A stretch of DNA of 64,000 nucleotides from an uncultured Methanomicrobiales archaeon (lineage in GTDB: Archaea > Halobacteriota > Methanomicrobia > Methanomicrobiales > Methanospirillaceae): the NCBI GenBank assembly GCA_903926075.1, contig CAIYHQ010000034.1, forward strand, positions 1 to 64,000, given 5' to 3'. The notes beneath the pieces were generated by a model. That model made no database searches. It was not told the origin of the DNA and saw nothing but the letters and a program-made list of their open reading frames with translations. Made by a program: the position numbers and the translations under genes. Of this stretch, positions 335 through 60,381 are shown in pieces; positions within the stretch are counted from its first letter, which is position 1; each line of letters opens with the position of its first letter.

Positions 335-1924
335 ATGAACCTTAAAACACCAAATGCAAATGAAGCGACAGGGACTGTAAACAGGTCACGTTCTGTTGTT
401 CCTATGTCAGGTATCTGTACCCGTTGTGTGGACGGGTGCAAAGGAGCATGTGAAATCTGGCTTTCTTCATTTAGAGGAAGGGAAGTATTATATCCCGGGC
501 CTTTTGGAGAAATAACCGCCGGCGCAGACAAGAACTATCCAATTGATTATTCACATATTAATATACAGGGTTATGCCCGTGGAGCAAGAGGCCTTCCATC
601 GGGTATTGTTGGGGACCCAGATACAGCAGTTTTTTCTGAAGTCGATACTGAAACCTCGTACGGATGGGACAAAAAAGTGAAGATGAAGATTCCGATCTTC
701 ACAGGAGCCCTTGGTTCCACAGAGATAGCCCGTGTTAACTGGGAACACTTCGCAGTCGGAGCTGCAATATCAGGTATAACTCTTGTTTGTGGTGAGAATG
801 TTTGTGGTATCGATCCCGGTCTTGAACGCGACTCAAAAGGAAAGGTATCGAAATCACCAGAGATGGACAGGAGAATAAATACCTACAAGAAATTCCATGA
901 CGAATACGGAGAGATTTTAGTCCAGATGAATGTTGAGGACACCCGTCTTGGAACTGCAGAATATGTAGCTTCGAAACACAACCTTGAAACTATAGAACTA
1001 AAATGGGGTCAGGGTGCGAAATGTATTGGAGGCGAAATTAAAGTTAATTCCCTTGAAAGAGCAATCGAACTTAAGAAGCGGGGATATATAGTTTTACCAG
1101 ACCCGACAAGGCCCGACATGGCGAAGGCGTTTAAAAATGGAGCAATTAAGGAATTTGAGCGCCATTCAAGACTTGGATTTGTATCAAAAGAGGGTTTCCT
1201 TGAAGAAGCTGATCGCCTAAGAGACATAGGATTCAAGCGTATAACTCTGAAAACAGGAGCCTATTCAATGAGCGAACTTGCAATGGCGATTCGTTATGGG
1301 GCAGAAGCAAAAATAGATCTCCTGACAATAGACGGAGCACCAGGTGGGACCGGTATGAGTCCCTGGCCTATGATGAATGAATGGGGTATCCCAACTTTCT
1401 ATCTGCAGTCCCTGGCTTATGAGTTCTGTGAAAAGTTAAAGAAAAAAGGTATCAGGGTTCCAGATATTGCAATAGCGGGTGGATTCGCAGACGAAGCAAA
1501 TGCTTTCAAGGCAATAGCGATGGGAAGCCCCTATGTAAAGGCCATCTGTATGGGCAGGGCTCTGATGATTCCGGGAATGGTAGGAAAGAACATCGGAAAA
1601 TGGATAAAGGAAAAAGACCTCCCCAAAGCTGTAGCAAAATACGGTTCAAAAATTGAAGAGATCTTTGTTACATACGAAGAACTCAAAGAGAAATTTGGAT
1701 CAAGAATGGATGAAATTCCGCTTGGAGCAATAGCCATATACACGTATTCTCAGAGGTTTAAAACCGGGCTTCAGCAGGTAATGGCGGGTTCAAGAAATTT
1801 CAGCCTTGGAAGTGTCACAAGGGATGATCTGATGGCACTCACCGAAGAGTCAGCGAAAGTATCCGGAATAAAATATGTTATGGATGCCTATCGTGAGGAT
1901 GCTCTTGATATCCTTCTCAATTAA
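335..1924 (+). CDS. FMN-binding glutamate synthase family protein (GltB domain 2-like)
   Basis: This 529-residue protein resembles the central FMN-binding synthase domain of glutamate synthase, which forms glutamate from 2-oxoglutarate and ammonia. It lacks the N-terminal glutamine amidotransferase domain of bacterial GltB. Recognisable elements are the WGQGAK segment followed by GGE, the DGAPGGTG loop and the AIAGGFADE and GRALM segments of the TIM barrel. The N-terminus has a tight cysteine cluster at C28, C31, C35 and C39, unlike the iron-sulfur spacing of classical GltB; it may bind a cluster or metal. The ATG at 335 has GAGGAGA eleven bases upstream. Its 3' end overlaps the convergent next gene by 8 bp. 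The family is clear, but the true substrate and electron donor are not, since no gltD partner is adjacent. Confidence 0.8.
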   Translation: MNLKTPNANEATGTVNRSRSVVPMSGICTRCVDGCKGACEIWLSSFRGREVLYPGPFGEITAGADKNYPIDYSHINIQGYARGARGLPSGIVGDPDTAVFSEVDTETSYGWDKKVKMKIPIFTGALGSTEIARVNWEHFAVGAAISGITLVCGENVCGIDPGLERDSKGKVSKSPEMDRRINTYKKFHDEYGEILVQMNVEDTRLGTAEYVASKHNLETIELKWGQGAKCIGGEIKVNSLERAIELKKRGYIVLPDPTRPDMAKAFKNGAIKEFERHSRLGFVSKEGFLEEADRLRDIGFKRITLKTGAYSMSELAMAIRYGAEAKIDLLTIDGAPGGTGMSPWPMMNEWGIPTFYLQSLAYEFCEKLKKKGIRVPDIAIAGGFADEANAFKAIAMGSPYVKAICMGRALMIPGMVGKNIGKWIKEKDLPKAVAKYGSKIEEIFVTYEELKEKFGSRMDEIPLGAIAIYTYSQRFKTGLQQVMAGSRNFSLGSVTRDDLMALTEESAKVSGIKYVMDAYREDALDILLN

Positions 1925-3059
1925 TCTTTTTTTCTCCTATTATTGTTCCGGCTATCTTTGATCCAAGTGTCGGTGTCAGTGCTTCCAGCCAGAGGAAAAA
2001 ACCTACTTTTGACGGGGTATATCGTTCAAACTTAAAAATCCCATTGCGATCCTGTACCATTTTCAGGTACTCCTTTCTCTGTTTCGATCTGAGATAGATG
2101 ATGAAACATTTATCTGGCAGGTCCATTGCAAGGACTACTTTTGAGAAATAGTTCATGATATCCTGATATGAAAGACATTCTCCCTTGATTGTAAATTTAT
2201 AATTTTCACAGATCTTTTTTACTGCTGATGGAAAAAGAGCCCCGAACAAGACTTTTTTTACAACTTCAGGTGGATTATAAACTATCTTTGATTTCCATGT
2301 AAGGCTATTATCAGAAATAAGTCTTAAAAACATATCCCTTTCCTTGTTGTGAAACGCCAGATAATCGAAACCCGTTTTTATACTTATATCAATTGCATAG
2401 ACTACTTTAGGATGGTAAAATGGAATTCTGGGGACTTCATAAATGGGTTCGTTCATAAGATGGACTTTTATCTGTTCACATGAATCGGTTAGTACAAAGG
2501 CATTTTCAGGTGATTTTAGAAGTTTTCTGACAACAAGTGAGTTTGAAATGTCAATTGAGGATACGAGTATGAAATATACCGGGTATTGAGAGAAAAGATA
2601 TCCGAGCAGCCTTTTTTTATACTCGATTTCAATCTCAAACTCTTTCAAATCAGATGGAGATGTAATGACTTCAGCAAAAACTACCTGGTTATTGTAATCA
2701 ATTAATAGTATATCAAACTCGGCAAGATCCTGTCCATTTCCCCTTATTGTGATGTCACCTGACCTTGAATAGTAAAAGCCATTTTGTCCCAGTTTTATAC
2801 GCGCTCTTCGTTTTGGTGCATCAGCACCTTTTGCTGTTATATATTTAAGATAGTTGTTCTTTTGTGATATCTCAAGAAATGTTTCGTAGATGACTGCCTC
2901 ATACCAGCGCCCTTCTGCAGTCCTCATTGAGCCTATGTCAGTTGAAAATAGTTTTCTGCGTTCACCACGGTTCAAATGCCGGGTTGCCCTGACTACAAGT
3001 GATTCCCTTGGATGGAAAAGTTCACTCTGTGAACTTAAAAACGCTGTTAGATCACCCAT
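1917..3059 (-). CDS. Conserved-looking hypothetical protein with possible PD-(D/E)XK nuclease-like core
   Basis: I do not recognise this 380-residue protein. Its central part (about residues 125-165) has the feel of a restriction-endonuclease-like fold: a hydrophobic strand EFDILLID, then VVFAEVITS, then a helix rich in E and K. In PD-(D/E)XK enzymes the second strand would read E-x-K; here it reads E-V-I, so the lysine is missing or has moved. No signal peptide, membrane segment or HTH is evident. The N-terminal part is basic (about residues 25-40). It is transcribed alone, converges on the glutamate-synthase-like gene with an 8-bp overlap, and diverges from tRNA-Lys. A nuclease role is only a structural guess. 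Confidence 0.6.
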   Translation of the reverse strand: MGDLTAFLSSQSELFHPRESLVVRATRHLNRGERRKLFSTDIGSMRTAEGRWYEAVIYETFLEISQKNNYLKYITAKGADAPKRRARIKLGQNGFYYSRSGDITIRGNGQDLAEFDILLIDYNNQVVFAEVITSPSDLKEFEIEIEYKKRLLGYLFSQYPVYFILVSSIDISNSLVVRKLLKSPENAFVLTDSCEQIKVHLMNEPIYEVPRIPFYHPKVVYAIDISIKTGFDYLAFHNKERDMFLRLISDNSLTWKSKIVYNPPEVVKKVLFGALFPSAVKKICENYKFTIKGECLSYQDIMNYFSKVVLAMDLPDKCFIIYLRSKQRKEYLKMVQDRNGIFKFERYTPSKVGFFLWLEALTPTLGSKIAGTIIGEKKIN

Positions 3060-30480: not shown

Positions 30481-33400
30481 ATGGTAGACAGAAATGCGTT
30501 ATTAATTGTCCTCCTCTTGTTAGGAATGATTTGTGTACCTGTCACCTCAGCGGGTTCTGGTACAATTGTTGTCACATCAGTTCCTGATAAGGTATCAGTT
30601 CAATTGGACGATCGTTATATAGGCACAACACCACTCAAATTATTTGGTATAGAACCTGGAAATCATGTGATTAGATGGGTTAAAAGCGGGTATACGACTT
30701 ATAGTACCAATGCAAAAATAGAAACCGGAAAAAATTACACATTCGATGCAGTATTAAAACCTCTCACTCCGCTTCCAACCACAAAGCCAACGACACAACC
30801 AACCACAACTCCAACTCAGAGTGGATTTGGGTATTACCTCGTTAAATGCAATGTTGAATCTGCAGATGTCTATTTTATTGATGCAGACGGTTGGATAACT
30901 TATGGTGGTGCCATAAAGAATGGACAGCTGACTTTCCCGGTGTATCCTACCGCCACTCCTTTGGTATCATATGATGTTTTTGCGGACGGGTATGCTCCAT
31001 TTGAAGGCACTATAACAAAATATCCAAAATCAGGTGAGACTGTAACTCTTACCGCTACTCTCACACCAGCAACCCCTACCCCGACACCTGGAGGAATGGG
31101 TTATTTCCTCGTACAAAGTAATGTCGATGGAGCTCTAGTTTATTTCACTGATAGTAATGGCAAGAAAGAATTTGAGGGAACTATAGAAGACGGAGAACTT
31201 ACTGTTGCTATTGATCCATTGCAAACAGCTTATAATACAATTGACTTAGTAGCTGACGGATATATCAATTATAAATCTGACATTGGAACAAATCCAAAAA
31301 TAGGAGAAACTGTTACAATTGTTGCAAATATGGTTCCGGTTACCCCTACACCCGGGGGAATGGGTTATTTCCTTGTCAAAAGCAATGTCGAGAACGGAAT
31401 TGTTTTGTTTTATGACTCTTCCGGGAATAGTGAGTTTATGGGTCTCACTGCAAATGGTCAACTTATAGTTCCGGTTGACCCACTGAATCAGGTTTACAAA
31501 TCCATTGAAGTTGTAAAAGAAGGATACAATGTCTTTGATACAGATATTACACAGTACCCAAAAACAGGAGAGACCGTTACAGTAGTTGCAAATCTTGTTC
31601 CATTAACCCCTACACCAACTATTACTGTAGGTGGACTCGGTTATTTCCTAATTCAAAGTAATGTGAACGGGGCTCTTGTTTATTTCATTGATAGTAATGG
31701 AAAAAGGGAGTTTGAAGGGACAATTGTCAATAATAAACTGGTTGTAGCTGTCGACCCGTTACGTTCTTCTTCACTCTATAAAAAAGTCGAAGTAATTGCA
31801 GCCGGATATAAAGCATATAATGCCGGTATAACCCAATATCCCAAGGCAGGACAAACAGTAACAATAGTTGCAAATCTTACACCTGCTACTCCTACACCTA
31901 CTTCTACTCCAAGTGGAATTGGCTACTACCTCGTTAAATGTAATGTAAATGGGGCAGGAGTATTCTTTACGGATGTTAGTGGATTTGTCACTTATTCGGG
32001 AGTCATTAATAACGGACAACTTAAGGTTCCGGTCTATGTCACTGCGACCCCGTTTGCTTCATATAGTGTCGCTGCACCCGGTTATCGCGTGTATAACGGT
32101 AATATAACCACATATCCCAAAGTGGGTGAAATAATTACCCTTTCAGCACAGCTGATTCCGGTTACTCCCACTCCAACTCAATCGAATATCGGATTCTATC
32201 AGGTTAAAACCAATGTTGATCAAGCAGGAGTCTCTTTCACCGATGTTAACGGGCACGTGGGATATGTAGGAGTGACAGTGAATGGCTCTCTTTTAGTTCC
32301 GGTCTATACCACAGGTACACCATATAAGTTGTTTACTGTTGTAGCCCAGGGTTATATTCCATATTCAGCGACTATTACGACTTATCCAACAAGCGGACAG
32401 ACAATCATTTTACAATCCAATCTGATTCCAAGAACTCCAACTCCTACACCCACTATATCTTCTAATATCGGGTATCTCCTTATCAAGTCAAATGTAGAAG
32501 GGGCCAATGTATTATTGACTGATGTCAACGGGGCTCTCACTCAGGCTGGAACAATCTATAACGGCCAGTTAAATGTGTCAGTGTATGTAACCGGAACGCC
32601 ATATAAATCATATATCGTGAGTGCGAATGGTTACATACCGTATTCAGGCTTGGTTACCCCGTATCCACAAGCAGGTCAGACAGTAATATTGACCGGAAAT
32701 CTGAGTCCAGTCACACCAACACCCACTCCCACTATATCTTCTAATGTCGGTTATCTTCTCTTCAAGTCGAACGTAGAAGGTGCAAATGTATTATTGACTG
32801 ATGTTAACGGGGTTCTGACTCAGGCAGGAACAATCAGTAACGGCCAGTTAAATGTGTCAGTATATGTAACTGGAACGCCTTATACATCTTATATCGTGAA
32901 TGCGAATGGTTACATACCGTATTCAGGCTTGGTTACCCCGTATCCACAAGCAGGTCAGACAGTAATACTGACCGGAAACCTGAGTCCAGTTACTCCAACT
33001 CCTACGCCGACTCCAGTATCGAATATTGGTTATCTTCTCTTCAAGTCGAACGTAGAAGGTGCAAATGTATTATTGACTGATGTCAACGGTGTCCAGATTC
33101 AGGCTGGAACAATCTATAATGGCCAGTTAAATGTGTCAGTGTATGTAACCGGAACCCCGTATAAATTGTATAGCGTGAGTGCGAATGGATACATACCGTA
33201 TTCGGGCTTGGTTTCACCATATCCTCAAGCAGGTCAGACTGTAATCCTGACAGGAAACCTAAGTCCCATTACTCCAACTCCTACACCTACTATATCGTCT
33301 AATATCGGTTATCTCCTTATCAAGTCTAATGTAGAAGGGGCCAATGTGACATTAACAGATGTCAATGGTCTCATAAGCCAGGCAGGCGCAATAAGGAGCG

Positions 33401-35172
33401 GTGAACTGAATATATCTGTTTACGTGACAGCAACACCCTATAAGATGTATGGACTCAGTTCAAATGGTTACATACCCTTTTCCAGCAATATTACCGCATA
33501 TCCGCAGGCAGGACAGACAGTAGTATTACCAGGAAATCTTACTCCTGTTACACCTACGCCGACTCCATCATCAAATATTGGTTATCTGCTTATCAAGTCG
33601 AATGTGGAAGGTGCAAATGTATTATTGACTGATGTCAACGGCGTCCTCACTCAACCAGGAACAATCTATAACGGACAGTTAAATGTGTCAGTGTATGTAA
33701 CCGGAACGCCGTATAAATTGTATAATGTAAGTTCGAGTGGTTACATACCGTATTCAGGTTCGATTACTACATATCCACAGGCAGGCCAAACAATAGTATT
33801 GCCTGGAAATCTGACCCCCCTTACTCCTACCGTCACTCCAACACCACCAGTAACACCATGTCCGGTTCCAACAGGAAATGTAACACCTACGCTGATTCCA
33901 GGATTAAAGCCATTCCCTAACATTGGTTGTGTCCCATCAGACCCGGATGGTGATGGACTTTATGAGGATGTTAATGCCAACCTTAAAATCGATCCAAATG
34001 ATGTAGTAGTTTACTATTCAAATCTTGAATGGATTCCAAAGAATGAACCTATAATCCTATTTGATTATAATAAAAATGGCAGAATCGAATATGGAGATGT
34101 AGTTGCTTTATATCAAAAAGTCTACTCTCCTGTTACTCCAACTGTGACAACGACAGTTGTAACGCCAACTCCTTCACCCACTACAATAATTCCAACTACA
34201 ATATCTCCCACAACAGCTCCAACGACAACTGTTCCAACAACAACCGTCACAGCTACACCCACTTATCAGCCAACAGTGACACCAACAGCAACCCCAATTA
34301 CTGGTACTGGTTACTTTAATGTCCATAGCAATGTCGAAGGTGCTTTTGTTAACTTTACAGACCGAAATGGAATAACAAAATTAATGGGTGTAATTTCCCG
34401 TGGAATTCTTAATGTAAGTGTGAATCTTAACGCAACTCCTTATAGAGATTATAGTGTAAGTTATCCCGGATACCAGACGTTTGCAAGTGGTATAAGCCGT
34501 TACCCACTTACAAATGAGACTATTGACTTATATGCCCCTCTTTTTCCGGTAACTCCAACTGTAACTCCGGAAAAGAGAGTGGCTCAGATTACAGTCATTG
34601 ATTATTACCCCGAGTGGATTGGAGAGGGTTCAGACAAACAACTTGTTATAAGGGGAGAAGCAGTGAACACTGGAACATATGCTCTCGCAAATGCTGAGGT
34701 TCTCGCAGACTTCTATGCGAAAAATGGTGAATTCCTGGGTACTTACTCTGATTGTGTAAATGCACTAAACCCAGGAGAACATTGGAAGTTTGAAATAGAC
34801 TATCTGGGTGATACAAACAAAGTTGAGCAAGCATCTTATCAGGTAGTGCCCGGAGTACTTACCCCGCTGAACCCTGGAAGAATAGATTTAAAAAACCAGC
34901 TTGTTATAAATTCACAGTCGCTCATTCTTCCAAATGACACGATACAAAAAGCTATGGTTATTGGAAATGTCACAAATTCAGGTCCACTTAATGTTGGATA
35001 TGCCAACCTGTATGCAAAATTTTATGATAGTGAAAATGCAGTAACCGGCTCTTATATTAACGAAGTAACAAACCTCCGTTCTGGAGATGTATGGATGTAC
35101 AAATTTACCGACACAAGGAATCTCTGGGAACTTGGCGGTAATGTCTCACTTGTATGGGGATATATAAGTTAA
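30481..35172 (+). CDS. Large secreted surface protein with PEGA-like repeats and dockerin-like segment
   Basis: The 1563-residue protein starts with a signal peptide (about 1-24, cleavage near SAGS) and a PEGA domain (25-95: VPDKVSVQLDDRYIGTTPLKL). Eleven tandem modules of about 90 residues follow, from about residue 117, each opening with GYxLxKxNVxGAxV and joined by Thr-Pro linkers (TPTPTP). A segment at about 1153-1215 has two calcium-loop-like motifs (DPDGDGLYED and DYNKNGRIEYGD) as in dockerin-type modules of methanogens. A twelfth module lies near residue 1274. The C-terminal 200 residues are beta-rich and resemble FxLYD-like domains. Many NxS/T sites suggest N-glycosylation. It has no C-terminal membrane anchor that I can see, so it is secreted or held non-covalently. 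Likely an adhesin or envelope component; ligand unknown. Confidence 0.8.
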   Translation: MVDRNALLIVLLLLGMICVPVTSAGSGTIVVTSVPDKVSVQLDDRYIGTTPLKLFGIEPGNHVIRWVKSGYTTYSTNAKIETGKNYTFDAVLKPLTPLPTTKPTTQPTTTPTQSGFGYYLVKCNVESADVYFIDADGWITYGGAIKNGQLTFPVYPTATPLVSYDVFADGYAPFEGTITKYPKSGETVTLTATLTPATPTPTPGGMGYFLVQSNVDGALVYFTDSNGKKEFEGTIEDGELTVAIDPLQTAYNTIDLVADGYINYKSDIGTNPKIGETVTIVANMVPVTPTPGGMGYFLVKSNVENGIVLFYDSSGNSEFMGLTANGQLIVPVDPLNQVYKSIEVVKEGYNVFDTDITQYPKTGETVTVVANLVPLTPTPTITVGGLGYFLIQSNVNGALVYFIDSNGKREFEGTIVNNKLVVAVDPLRSSSLYKKVEVIAAGYKAYNAGITQYPKAGQTVTIVANLTPATPTPTSTPSGIGYYLVKCNVNGAGVFFTDVSGFVTYSGVINNGQLKVPVYVTATPFASYSVAAPGYRVYNGNITTYPKVGEIITLSAQLIPVTPTPTQSNIGFYQVKTNVDQAGVSFTDVNGHVGYVGVTVNGSLLVPVYTTGTPYKLFTVVAQGYIPYSATITTYPTSGQTIILQSNLIPRTPTPTPTISSNIGYLLIKSNVEGANVLLTDVNGALTQAGTIYNGQLNVSVYVTGTPYKSYIVSANGYIPYSGLVTPYPQAGQTVILTGNLSPVTPTPTPTISSNVGYLLFKSNVEGANVLLTDVNGVLTQAGTISNGQLNVSVYVTGTPYTSYIVNANGYIPYSGLVTPYPQAGQTVILTGNLSPVTPTPTPTPVSNIGYLLFKSNVEGANVLLTDVNGVQIQAGTIYNGQLNVSVYVTGTPYKLYSVSANGYIPYSGLVSPYPQAGQTVILTGNLSPITPTPTPTISSNIGYLLIKSNVEGANVTLTDVNGLISQAGAIRSGELNISVYVTATPYKMYGLSSNGYIPFSSNITAYPQAGQTVVLPGNLTPVTPTPTPSSNIGYLLIKSNVEGANVLLTDVNGVLTQPGTIYNGQLNVSVYVTGTPYKLYNVSSSGYIPYSGSITTYPQAGQTIVLPGNLTPLTPTVTPTPPVTPCPVPTGNVTPTLIPGLKPFPNIGCVPSDPDGDGLYEDVNANLKIDPNDVVVYYSNLEWIPKNEPIILFDYNKNGRIEYGDVVALYQKVYSPVTPTVTTTVVTPTPSPTTIIPTTISPTTAPTTTVPTTTVTATPTYQPTVTPTATPITGTGYFNVHSNVEGAFVNFTDRNGITKLMGVISRGILNVSVNLNATPYRDYSVSYPGYQTFASGISRYPLTNETIDLYAPLFPVTPTVTPEKRVAQITVIDYYPEWIGEGSDKQLVIRGEAVNTGTYALANAEVLADFYAKNGEFLGTYSDCVNALNPGEHWKFEIDYLGDTNKVEQASYQVVPGVLTPLNPGRIDLKNQLVINSQSLILPNDTIQKAMVIGNVTNSGPLNVGYANLYAKFYDSENAVTGSYINEVTNLRSGDVWMYKFTDTRNLWELGGNVSLVWGYIS
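32470..33840 (+). repeat. Five near-identical 279-bp coding repeats in the surface-protein gene
   Basis: Modules 7 to 11 begin (at the GGTTATC or GGGTATC codons) at 32470, 32749, 33028, 33307 and 33580. The spacing is exactly 279 bases three times and then 273. Between modules 7 and 8 a 67-base run is identical (32622-32688 and 32901-32967), including third codon positions. The first six modules are much more diverged. This indicates recent duplication or gene conversion in this part of the gene. Confidence 0.85.
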
Positions 35173-57973: not shown

Positions 57974-58984
57974 ATGAAACCCGGTTTTATCCCTTCAAGC
58001 AAAGGGTGCCAGATATGCCGTGAGGGGGCCACTATGGTTCTTTTCCTTACTGGTGAATGTTCCAGGGATTGCTGGTACTGCCCTCTCTCCAGAGAAAGAA
58101 AAGGAAAAGACATAGTTTTCGCCAATGATACCCAGGTTAAGGAATTAGACGAGATTGTAAAAGTAGCAGAGATGATGGGCGCTCTTGGCACAGGTATTAC
58201 CGGAGGAGAAGCACTACTAAAAGTTGATCGCCTGAAAATAGCGGCAGGTCTATTAAAAACAAATTTCGGAAAAAGTTACTATATTCATTTATACACCGGG
58301 ATTATTCCTCTCGAATCTGCATTAAATCAACTAATCGGCCTTATAGATGAGATTCGTCTCCACCCCCCGGCAGATCTCTGGGCAGATATTATGGATACAA
58401 CATATCCTTCTCTTATCTGTGAGATCCGTAAAAAAGGATTTTCAATCGGTATTGAAGTCCCTTCAATTCCTTCTATCCGTAAACTCCTGCCTCTTTTACC
58501 TTTAGTCGATTTCTTTAATATTAACGAGCTTGAGTGGGGCGACCAGAATGCGGATGAGATGCGTTCGAGAGGATTTTCTTTTGTAAACCGGACTCATAAT
58601 GCAATCGAGGGTTCTCTGGAATGGTCAAAGGAGTTCCTGTCGGATTCGAAAGTGAACTTCTGTAGTTCATCCTTTAAAGATAGCGTACAACTTAGAAATC
58701 GATTAATACGCGTTGCAGAGCGGACAAGGCGACTATTTGATACAGTAACAGATGATGGTACAATACTTTATGGTGTGCTTGAAAATCCTTGCGAAGAGGA
58801 CCGTGGAATTTTAAGTGATATTGATCCAGAACTCTATGAAATTTGCGGCGATGAGATTCATATTGGATACTGGTATCTTTATGATGCGGAAAAAAAATTT
58901 TTGTGCAAAAGGTATATAGTCGAACGGTACCCAAATGAAGGAATTATTGTTGAGGTTACTCCAGTTCTATGCTCAGGGCAATAA
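57974..58984 (+). CDS. Radical SAM protein of unknown substrate
   Basis: The 336-residue protein has a radical-SAM cluster motif C29-x3-C33-x2-C36 (GECSRDCWYCPLS), two extra N-terminal cysteines (C12, C15) and the glycine-rich GITGGEALL. The family is related to pyruvate formate-lyase activating enzymes (COG2108-like) and is common in methanogens without known function. The gene overlaps the cis-prenyltransferase start by 16 bases. This coupling hints at lipid-carrier modification, but the evidence is positional only. Confidence 0.82.
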   Translation: MKPGFIPSSKGCQICREGATMVLFLTGECSRDCWYCPLSRERKGKDIVFANDTQVKELDEIVKVAEMMGALGTGITGGEALLKVDRLKIAAGLLKTNFGKSYYIHLYTGIIPLESALNQLIGLIDEIRLHPPADLWADIMDTTYPSLICEIRKKGFSIGIEVPSIPSIRKLLPLLPLVDFFNINELEWGDQNADEMRSRGFSFVNRTHNAIEGSLEWSKEFLSDSKVNFCSSSFKDSVQLRNRLIRVAERTRRLFDTVTDDGTILYGVLENPCEEDRGILSDIDPELYEICGDEIHIGYWYLYDAEKKFLCKRYIVERYPNEGIIVEVTPVLCSGQ

Positions 58985-59769
58985 TTGAATCTGTTTATGA
59001 AAGTCTTTTACGAAGACAAATCAATCATATCCCGAGACATGTTGCAATTATACAGGATGGAAACAGAAGATATGCGAAAACATATAACCTCGATACCTCA
59101 AAAGGACACAATGCAGGAGCTGACAGGACTGAGAAAGTTCTCAACTGGGTCCACGAGATAGGTATTACTCATATTTCGCTCTATTCCTTCTCAACAGAGA
59201 ATTTTGAAAGAAAATCAGAAGAAGTTGATGAGCTCTTTCGCATTTTTAAGGAAAGATTTCAGCGTGTAGCTTCAGATGAAAGATTCCAGAAAAATAAGAT
59301 TCACGTAAAGATGGTTGGTGATCGTTCACTTCTCCCGTCTGATCTTCTAAACGCAGTTAATATTGCTGAAGAAGCAACAAAGCACCATAATAAGTTTTTT
59401 CTTTATGTTGCCCTTGCTTACGGAGGAAGAAATGAAATAGTAAGAGCAGCCCGTAAGGTCCTTACCGATGTAAAGGAAGGAAAAATTTCAAGAGATGATA
59501 TATCCGAATCGCTTCTTGAGTCTCACTTGCACGATGGGCTTCGAATCCCGCCTGTTGACCTGATTATCAGAACTGGTAACGAGCTTCGGACTTCAAATTT
59601 TCTTCCATGGCTTGCAAATGGAAATGAATGTGCTGTATACTTCTGCGCTCCTTACTGGCCGCTCTTTCGCCGGATTGATCTTATGAGGGCTGTAAGGGTC
59701 TACTCAGAGCGTATGTCATCGGGACAATATACAAAGCAGGATTTACCTGCCATAACGCCTCATTCGTGA
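58969..59769 (+). CDS. uppS: cis-Prenyltransferase, catalytic subunit (UppS-like)
   Basis: This enzyme family condenses isopentenyl diphosphate units into the long polyprenyl carrier used for glycan and N-glycan assembly. The catalytic loop HVAIIQDGNRRYA (D30) is intact, followed by GITHISLYSFSTENF, ALAYGGRNEI and DLIIRTGNELRTSNFL. The C-terminus lacks the RxG motif of single-subunit enzymes: after the WPLFRRID helix it reads YSERMSSGQYTKQ. This pattern matches the catalytic partner of heteromeric cis-prenyltransferases (DHDDS, Rer2). Its 3' end overlaps the convergent partner-like gene by 27 bp. Length 266. Confidence 0.9.
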   Translation: MLRAIIESVYESLLRRQINHIPRHVAIIQDGNRRYAKTYNLDTSKGHNAGADRTEKVLNWVHEIGITHISLYSFSTENFERKSEEVDELFRIFKERFQRVASDERFQKNKIHVKMVGDRSLLPSDLLNAVNIAEEATKHHNKFFLYVALAYGGRNEIVRAARKVLTDVKEGKISRDDISESLLESHLHDGLRIPPVDLIIRTGNELRTSNFLPWLANGNECAVYFCAPYWPLFRRIDLMRAVRVYSERMSSGQYTKQDLPAITPHS

Positions 59770-60381
59770 CTGATAATCACGTAGGACACGCAAAAAGTCT
59801 ATTTTCCGCATATTTTCCCAGTTTATGTCAGTAAAGAATAGTTCTGAGTAAACAGACTGCCATATCAGAAAGTCTGTAAGATAACTCTCACCTGTTTTTA
59901 TAACGAGGTCCGGGGTATATCTGAATGTCAGGTAATGGCCTATCAATTCTTCATTCACAGAATCAGGATCTATTCCTTCTTCTGCCATCTCCCGAATAGC
60001 CTTGATAATTTCTTCTTTTCCACTCTTTCCGATTGCAACAGTTACATGCGTTCCATTACCAATTTCTTCTCGTTCAGAGTCATAATAAAGTTCAAGCCGC
60101 GCTACTTCACCAATTTTTCGAATATATGGCAAATAATCTGGAATAAGAATGTTATCTTTTGTGCTTATATGATACGTCAGACCTTCGATATTTAATTTTT
60201 TTTTGTTTTTGTTTTTTGATTTAATTGTACATTCAAGTGAAATCTCACTTGCCCAAACTGAACATTCAAACAATTTTTCAGGAGCTGAAATGAAGTCCTT
60301 CTCTGTTAGCATAAAGCATATATGCAGAGGGAGGTCTTTGATCTGCCTTTTAAGCATTATTTCATACAGCCAGTGAAGCAT
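59743..60381 (-). CDS. Non-catalytic cis-prenyltransferase homologue (NgBR/Nus1-like subunit)
   Basis: The 212-residue protein aligns with cis-prenyltransferases over its C-terminal half (PDLVIKTGESYLTDFLIWQ, YSELFFTDINWENMR) and has a weakly conserved N-terminus. The catalytic Asp position is Thr (T26 in HICFMLTEKDF), so it should be inactive alone. It keeps the C-terminal RxG motif (SRMRRYGR) that the neighbour lacks. The complementary losses suggest it is the partner subunit supplying RxG to the active site of the complex. Expressed from the opposite strand. Confidence 0.8.
   Translation of the reverse strand: MLHWLYEIMLKRQIKDLPLHICFMLTEKDFISAPEKLFECSVWASEISLECTIKSKNKNKKKLNIEGLTYHISTKDNILIPDYLPYIRKIGEVARLELYYDSEREEIGNGTHVTVAIGKSGKEEIIKAIREMAEEGIDPDSVNEELIGHYLTFRYTPDLVIKTGESYLTDFLIWQSVYSELFFTDINWENMRKIDFLRVLRDYQSRMRRYGR

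Follow-up and report, generated by a model that had tools for sequence, protein, structure and literature searches.

Two cis-prenyltransferase-like genes that run towards each other in the genome of a Methanomicrobiales archaeon each carry only part of the active-site motifs of their family, which raises the question of whether their products work as one enzyme and why the genes lie tail to tail. We analysed a window of 64,000 nucleotides that contains both. The gene for the predicted large, catalytic subunit (DHDDS/Rer2/MM_0618-like) occupies positions 58969..59769 on the plus strand (266 aa, ATG start), and that for the predicted small, non-catalytic subunit (NgBR/Nus1-like) occupies 59743..60381 on the minus strand (212 aa, ATG start). 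The 27-bp tail-to-tail coding overlap given in the initial annotation was exact from the ORF coordinates (59743-59769), and its length varies in relatives. A genome-wide profile search (3.1 Mb, 96.9% complete) found two PF01255 genes alone, the converging pair. Since the genome has no other PF01255 gene, the pair most likely supplies the cis-prenyltransferase of the cell. Elsewhere in the window, positions 30481-35172 encode a probable surface protein of 1563 aa, made up of about 10 repeats joined by Thr/Pro linkers (PTPTP).

We examined the motifs of the two proteins in translation and in alignments of relatives. PF01255 covers its full domain in the large protein (E 1e-66). DGNRR lies at residues 30-34, with the catalytic D30 within IIQDGNRRY, and the C-terminus, YSERMSSGQYTKQDLPAITPHS, is without RxG; the initial annotation had described this plus-strand protein in the same way, and relatives agree. 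The IPP-binding arginines align at R201 and R207. Among 118 large subunits aligned, 84 from the order Methanomicrobiales and 34 from other families of the phylum, DGNRR was present in every one (84/84 and 34/34), as were both arginines (118/118), and RxG at the aligned place was found in 0/118. In one genome (G149), a second, diverged large-type gene lies between the large and small genes (L189, 2813-4984) and is probably a tandem copy.

In the small protein, PF01255 covers the C-terminal half only (E 3.5e-23). The position of the catalytic Asp is taken by T26, within CFMLTEKD, and the C-terminus is RMRRYGR, so the Thr and the terminal RRYGR reported for the minus-strand protein were seen again in the translation, and the split is conserved in relatives. 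The IPP-binding arginines are missing, with K162 and Y/H167 (Y167 here) at the aligned sites. RxG was present in 108 of the 109 small subunits aligned (85/85 in the order and 23/24 in other families), and the catalytic Asp was lost in 103, namely 84/85 in the order, mostly to Thr or Ser, and 19/24 in other families. It was kept at the aligned place in 1/85 and 5/24, respectively. The best conserved residues of the small protein include the C-terminal half and RxG. On its coding strand, an A-rich tract at 60190-60222, which encodes KSKNKNKKKLN and includes a long A homopolymer, is poorly matched by relatives and is a possible slippage site.

We then surveyed 150 genomes from the order. Matches were obtained in 144, and 138 held both the large and the small gene; the remainder, 4 with the small gene only and 2 with the large gene only, are mostly incomplete drafts. 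A Methanocorpusculum-like small subunit also turned up on a contig labelled Lachnospiraceae bacterium (L225), most likely through assembly contamination. On these comparative grounds the ORF pair with its motif split is not a product of chance, because orthologues occur in nearly all genomes of the order with the motifs divided alike. In a joint tree of sequences all from within the phylum, all small proteins and all large proteins formed two clades (100% SH-aLRT). This two-clade topology suggests that large and small subunits had probably diverged before the sampled lineages of the phylum did.

AlphaFold single-chain models, built from input alignments of 61 and 46 relatives, gave a cis-prenyltransferase fold for each subunit, both with a mean pLDDT of 87. 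For the large model, human DHDDS chains of the heteromeric complex took all eight top places among the PDB matches (TM 0.82-0.84), and bacterial UppS ranked below them. By profile search, the large subunit matched DHDDS and UppS about equally, and both far better than MM_0014. The small-subunit profile matched human NUS1/NgBR over most of its length (E 1e-10). For the small model, bacterial UppS scored better than NgBR by E-value, and NgBR (7pb1_B) was highest among the matches listed by target-normalised TM (0.68).

Two-part enzymes of this type are already known, archaeal heteromers included. In the human complex, the RxG-bearing C-terminus of NgBR enters the DHDDS active site across the interface, and catalysis is about 400-fold faster than with DHDDS alone; yeast Nus1 is without the canonical RxG (PMC7573591). 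The present pair resembles human DHDDS/NgBR and yeast Rer2/Nus1 in having a catalytic subunit without RxG and a non-catalytic subunit ending in RxG. The likeness extends to DHDDS as the best structural match of the large subunit, although by profile UppS is level with it. The archaeal small subunit differs from NgBR/Nus1 in lacking the long N-terminal membrane region. Fold and PF01255 family are also common to the bacterial UppS homodimers; however, DGN(R)R and RxG occur together in every UppS chain, whereas here these are divided over two proteins, and neither the large nor the small chain has both.

The initial annotation had stated that heteromeric archaeal enzymes are known from Methanosarcina. 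This is borne out by M. mazei MM_0618/MM_1083, a heteromeric enzyme that makes products of C45-50 with a presumed role in the glycosyl carrier lipid (PMC8131916). The likeness is one of two methanogen cis-prenyltransferase paralogues acting as one enzyme for that lipid (PMC8131916). The large and small genes of a family with one MM_0014-bearing member fall in the same two clades as ours, a likeness judged from the genomes of that family rather than from the MM_0618 and MM_1083 sequences. The M. mazei heteromer is said to have been originally reported by Emi et al. in 2019. The gene order differs, the genes being unlinked in the sampled genomes of that family and tail to tail here.

These comparisons bear on whether the large subunit needs a partner. 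Absence of RxG alone is insufficient to prove this, because M. mazei MM_0014 is a working homodimer without RxG (PMC8131916). It is nevertheless very improbable that the large subunit is a self-sufficient, MM_0014-like homodimer and the small protein an independent regulator, a membrane anchor or a decaying paralogue: MM_0014 and the weak activity of DHDDS alone (PMC7573591) lend this some plausibility, but MM_0014-like genes are a separate third type ending in TLGG that is absent from this genome, and decay is opposed by the conservation of the C-terminal half and RxG of the small protein and by the co-retention of its gene with the large gene across the order. The MM_0014/MA1831 type shares with the large subunit only the status of an archaeal cis-prenyltransferase without RxG; the homodimerization of MM_0014, the C-terminal TLGG and the short domain set it apart, and neither that terminus, nor that domain, nor a best match to MM_0014 was found here. 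A true MM_0014 type was found in another genome, of a Methanosarcina-type family.

We therefore return to the heteromeric enzyme of the DHDDS/NgBR pattern proposed in the initial annotation, which is strongly supported, as judged from the motifs, co-occurrence, phylogeny and single-chain models. It is highly probable that the pair forms the two subunits of the only cis-prenyltransferase of the cell, in which the RxG of the small subunit completes the active site of the large one in the manner of NgBR. The large subunit would bind the allylic primer and IPP and provide the loop with the catalytic aspartate. The small subunit would be a degenerate paralogue, incapable of catalysis alone, that pairs with the large one. 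Its C-terminal RxG would cross the interface and complete the active site, as that of NgBR does for DHDDS. The product would most likely be the polyprenyl diphosphate from which the glycosyl carrier lipid is formed.

Next, we investigated the gene arrangement across relatives. The initial annotation had called for a survey of whether the pair is conserved and convergent, and both proved to be so. Same-contig pairs in the order were convergent in 123/126 cases, 75 of them with genes no more than 200 bp apart by match coordinates; the three others comprised two tandem pairs and one divergent pair. The small subunit was used to find 80 named loci, and wherever both genes were present they converged (63/63), with 33 such loci from Methanomicrobiales, 25 from haloarchaea, 4 from Methanoperedens and 1 other. 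When ORF ends were measured at 91 loci from the order and other families, 88 were convergent. Of these, 23 overlapped by 13, 20, 27, 31 or 54 bp, 25 were 0-20 bp apart, 9 were 21-200 bp apart and 31 were more than 200 bp apart. The intergenic gap thus ranged from -54 bp to 10 kb, and some pairs have other genes between them. Haloarchaeal gaps were 19 bp in Halobacterium salinarum, 0-21 bp in Haloarcula and -4 to 2216 bp in Natrinema. The genes are unlinked in several other families of the phylum, one of which has the Methanosarcina-type third cis-prenyltransferase, and parsimony on the subunit trees gave 4-5 linkage changes. At one locus (L162), a 230-aa ORF at 2212-2904 lies in a spacer of about 770 bp between the pair; spacers of similar length occur in most sampled genomes of the same genus (g4), which belongs to our archaeon's own family.

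The convergent arrangement had been called unusual, which held but was an understatement, as its conservation extends across the order and to haloarchaea. Because genes for partner subunits usually stand in co-linear order, the head-on order of two genes for likely obligate partners was unexpected. A literature search, with most subscription journals outside its coverage, found no paper describing the gene arrangement, and its conservation appears to be new in the literature searched. The tail-to-tail order would be older than the split between Methanomicrobiales and haloarchaea, or would have been transferred between them as a unit.

Why the linkage persists may be approached from its surroundings. 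Tight convergence was discarded as evidence by itself, since another convergent pair in the window, 335-1924(+)/1917-3059(-), also overlaps. This pair has an 8-bp overlap and consists of a gene judged by eye to be glutamate-synthase-like and a gene for a conserved 380-aa protein. It is quite possible, if somewhat short of probable, that the linkage reflects inertia, either as a neutral gene order that was never broken or as a relic of an inverted duplication that yielded both paralogues. Such tight tail-to-tail gaps elsewhere in the window and the loss of linkage in several families agree with inertia, and the paralogy of the two genes agrees with an inverted-duplication relic; inheritance as a unit or such a relic is possible. 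However, when we used the 335-3059 pair as a control, hand counts gave convergence in 13/15 own-family genomes with both genes, compared with 0/28 genomes of other families. The linkage of the cis-prenyltransferase pair outlasts that of this single control pair and in that comparison is unusually long-lived.

The neighbourhood also argues against inertia. Between haloarchaeal and Methanomicrobiales loci, the large gene was essentially the sole gene in common within 10 kb of the small gene. Other common matches were frames that lie antisense to the two genes or shadow them, with a weak exception or two, such as L268 17199-18050, common to 4 loci. The FeoB, DtxR-like and radical SAM genes were common to Methanomicrobiales loci only, bar one radical SAM match elsewhere. 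We regard it as possible, though rather doubtful, that the tail-to-tail linkage itself is selected, for example if convergent transcription or local co-translation aids the balance or assembly of the heteromer.

The antisense-coupled subunit expression put forward in the initial annotation did not hold up as a general mechanism. According to this proposal, the overlapping 3' ends couple expression of the subunits via antisense RNA and thereby keep the linkage convergent, in keeping with the 27 bp that the two genes share here and the 13-54 bp shared in 22 further genomes. Overlap was found in 23/88 convergent pairs only and was absent from 65, and in 31 pairs the gap exceeds 200 bp, reaching 10 kb and in some cases spanning other genes. 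A terminator-like scan stayed near chance level and an Rfam search found no family. Mutual antisense RNA is not the general reason for the linkage, because most pairs are without overlap and some are separated by genes, such as the 230-aa ORF at L162; as a conserved mechanism it was rejected, the overlap not being conserved. Such coupling could operate in this genome, but as the cause of the linkage it is unlikely.

Upstream of the pair, the radical SAM ORF at 57974..58984 on the plus strand overlaps the start of the large-subunit gene by 16 bp, confirming the overlap seen in the initial annotation. Its CX3CX2C motif is CSRDCWYC, and the family is one that we take to be COG2108. Within the class, every genome searched (61/61) had a close relative, whose coordinates place it immediately before the large-subunit gene. 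Several other families, by inference Archaeoglobus-like and Methanosarcina-like, also have relatives upstream of the large subunit; at haloarchaeal loci, the gene was not found beside the large subunit. The linkage of the radical SAM gene to the large subunit is robust in methanogens. A TGA lies inside most radical SAM matches, and we considered a recoded in-frame stop; in the case traced (G007, L132), it was a normal stop, the coordinates placing the alignment one codon beyond the radical SAM stop, in the overlapping start of the large subunit. A literature search on this family found no useful paper. Its tie to the large subunit makes this gene a candidate lead to a further step.

To our knowledge, biochemical proof of an archaeal heteromeric cis-prenyltransferase exists in very few species. 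The present results would extend this enzyme to essentially all Methanomicrobiales and to the sampled haloarchaea. If the tail-to-tail linkage is indeed selected, it would be a convergent counterpart of the operon, kept in Methanomicrobiales, Methanoperedens and haloarchaea despite the reshuffling of neighbouring genes. The tandem, divergent and kilobase-separated exceptions offer a natural experiment to test the importance of this gene order. As the sole cis-prenyltransferase of its genome, the pair should be essential for the glycosyl carrier lipid.
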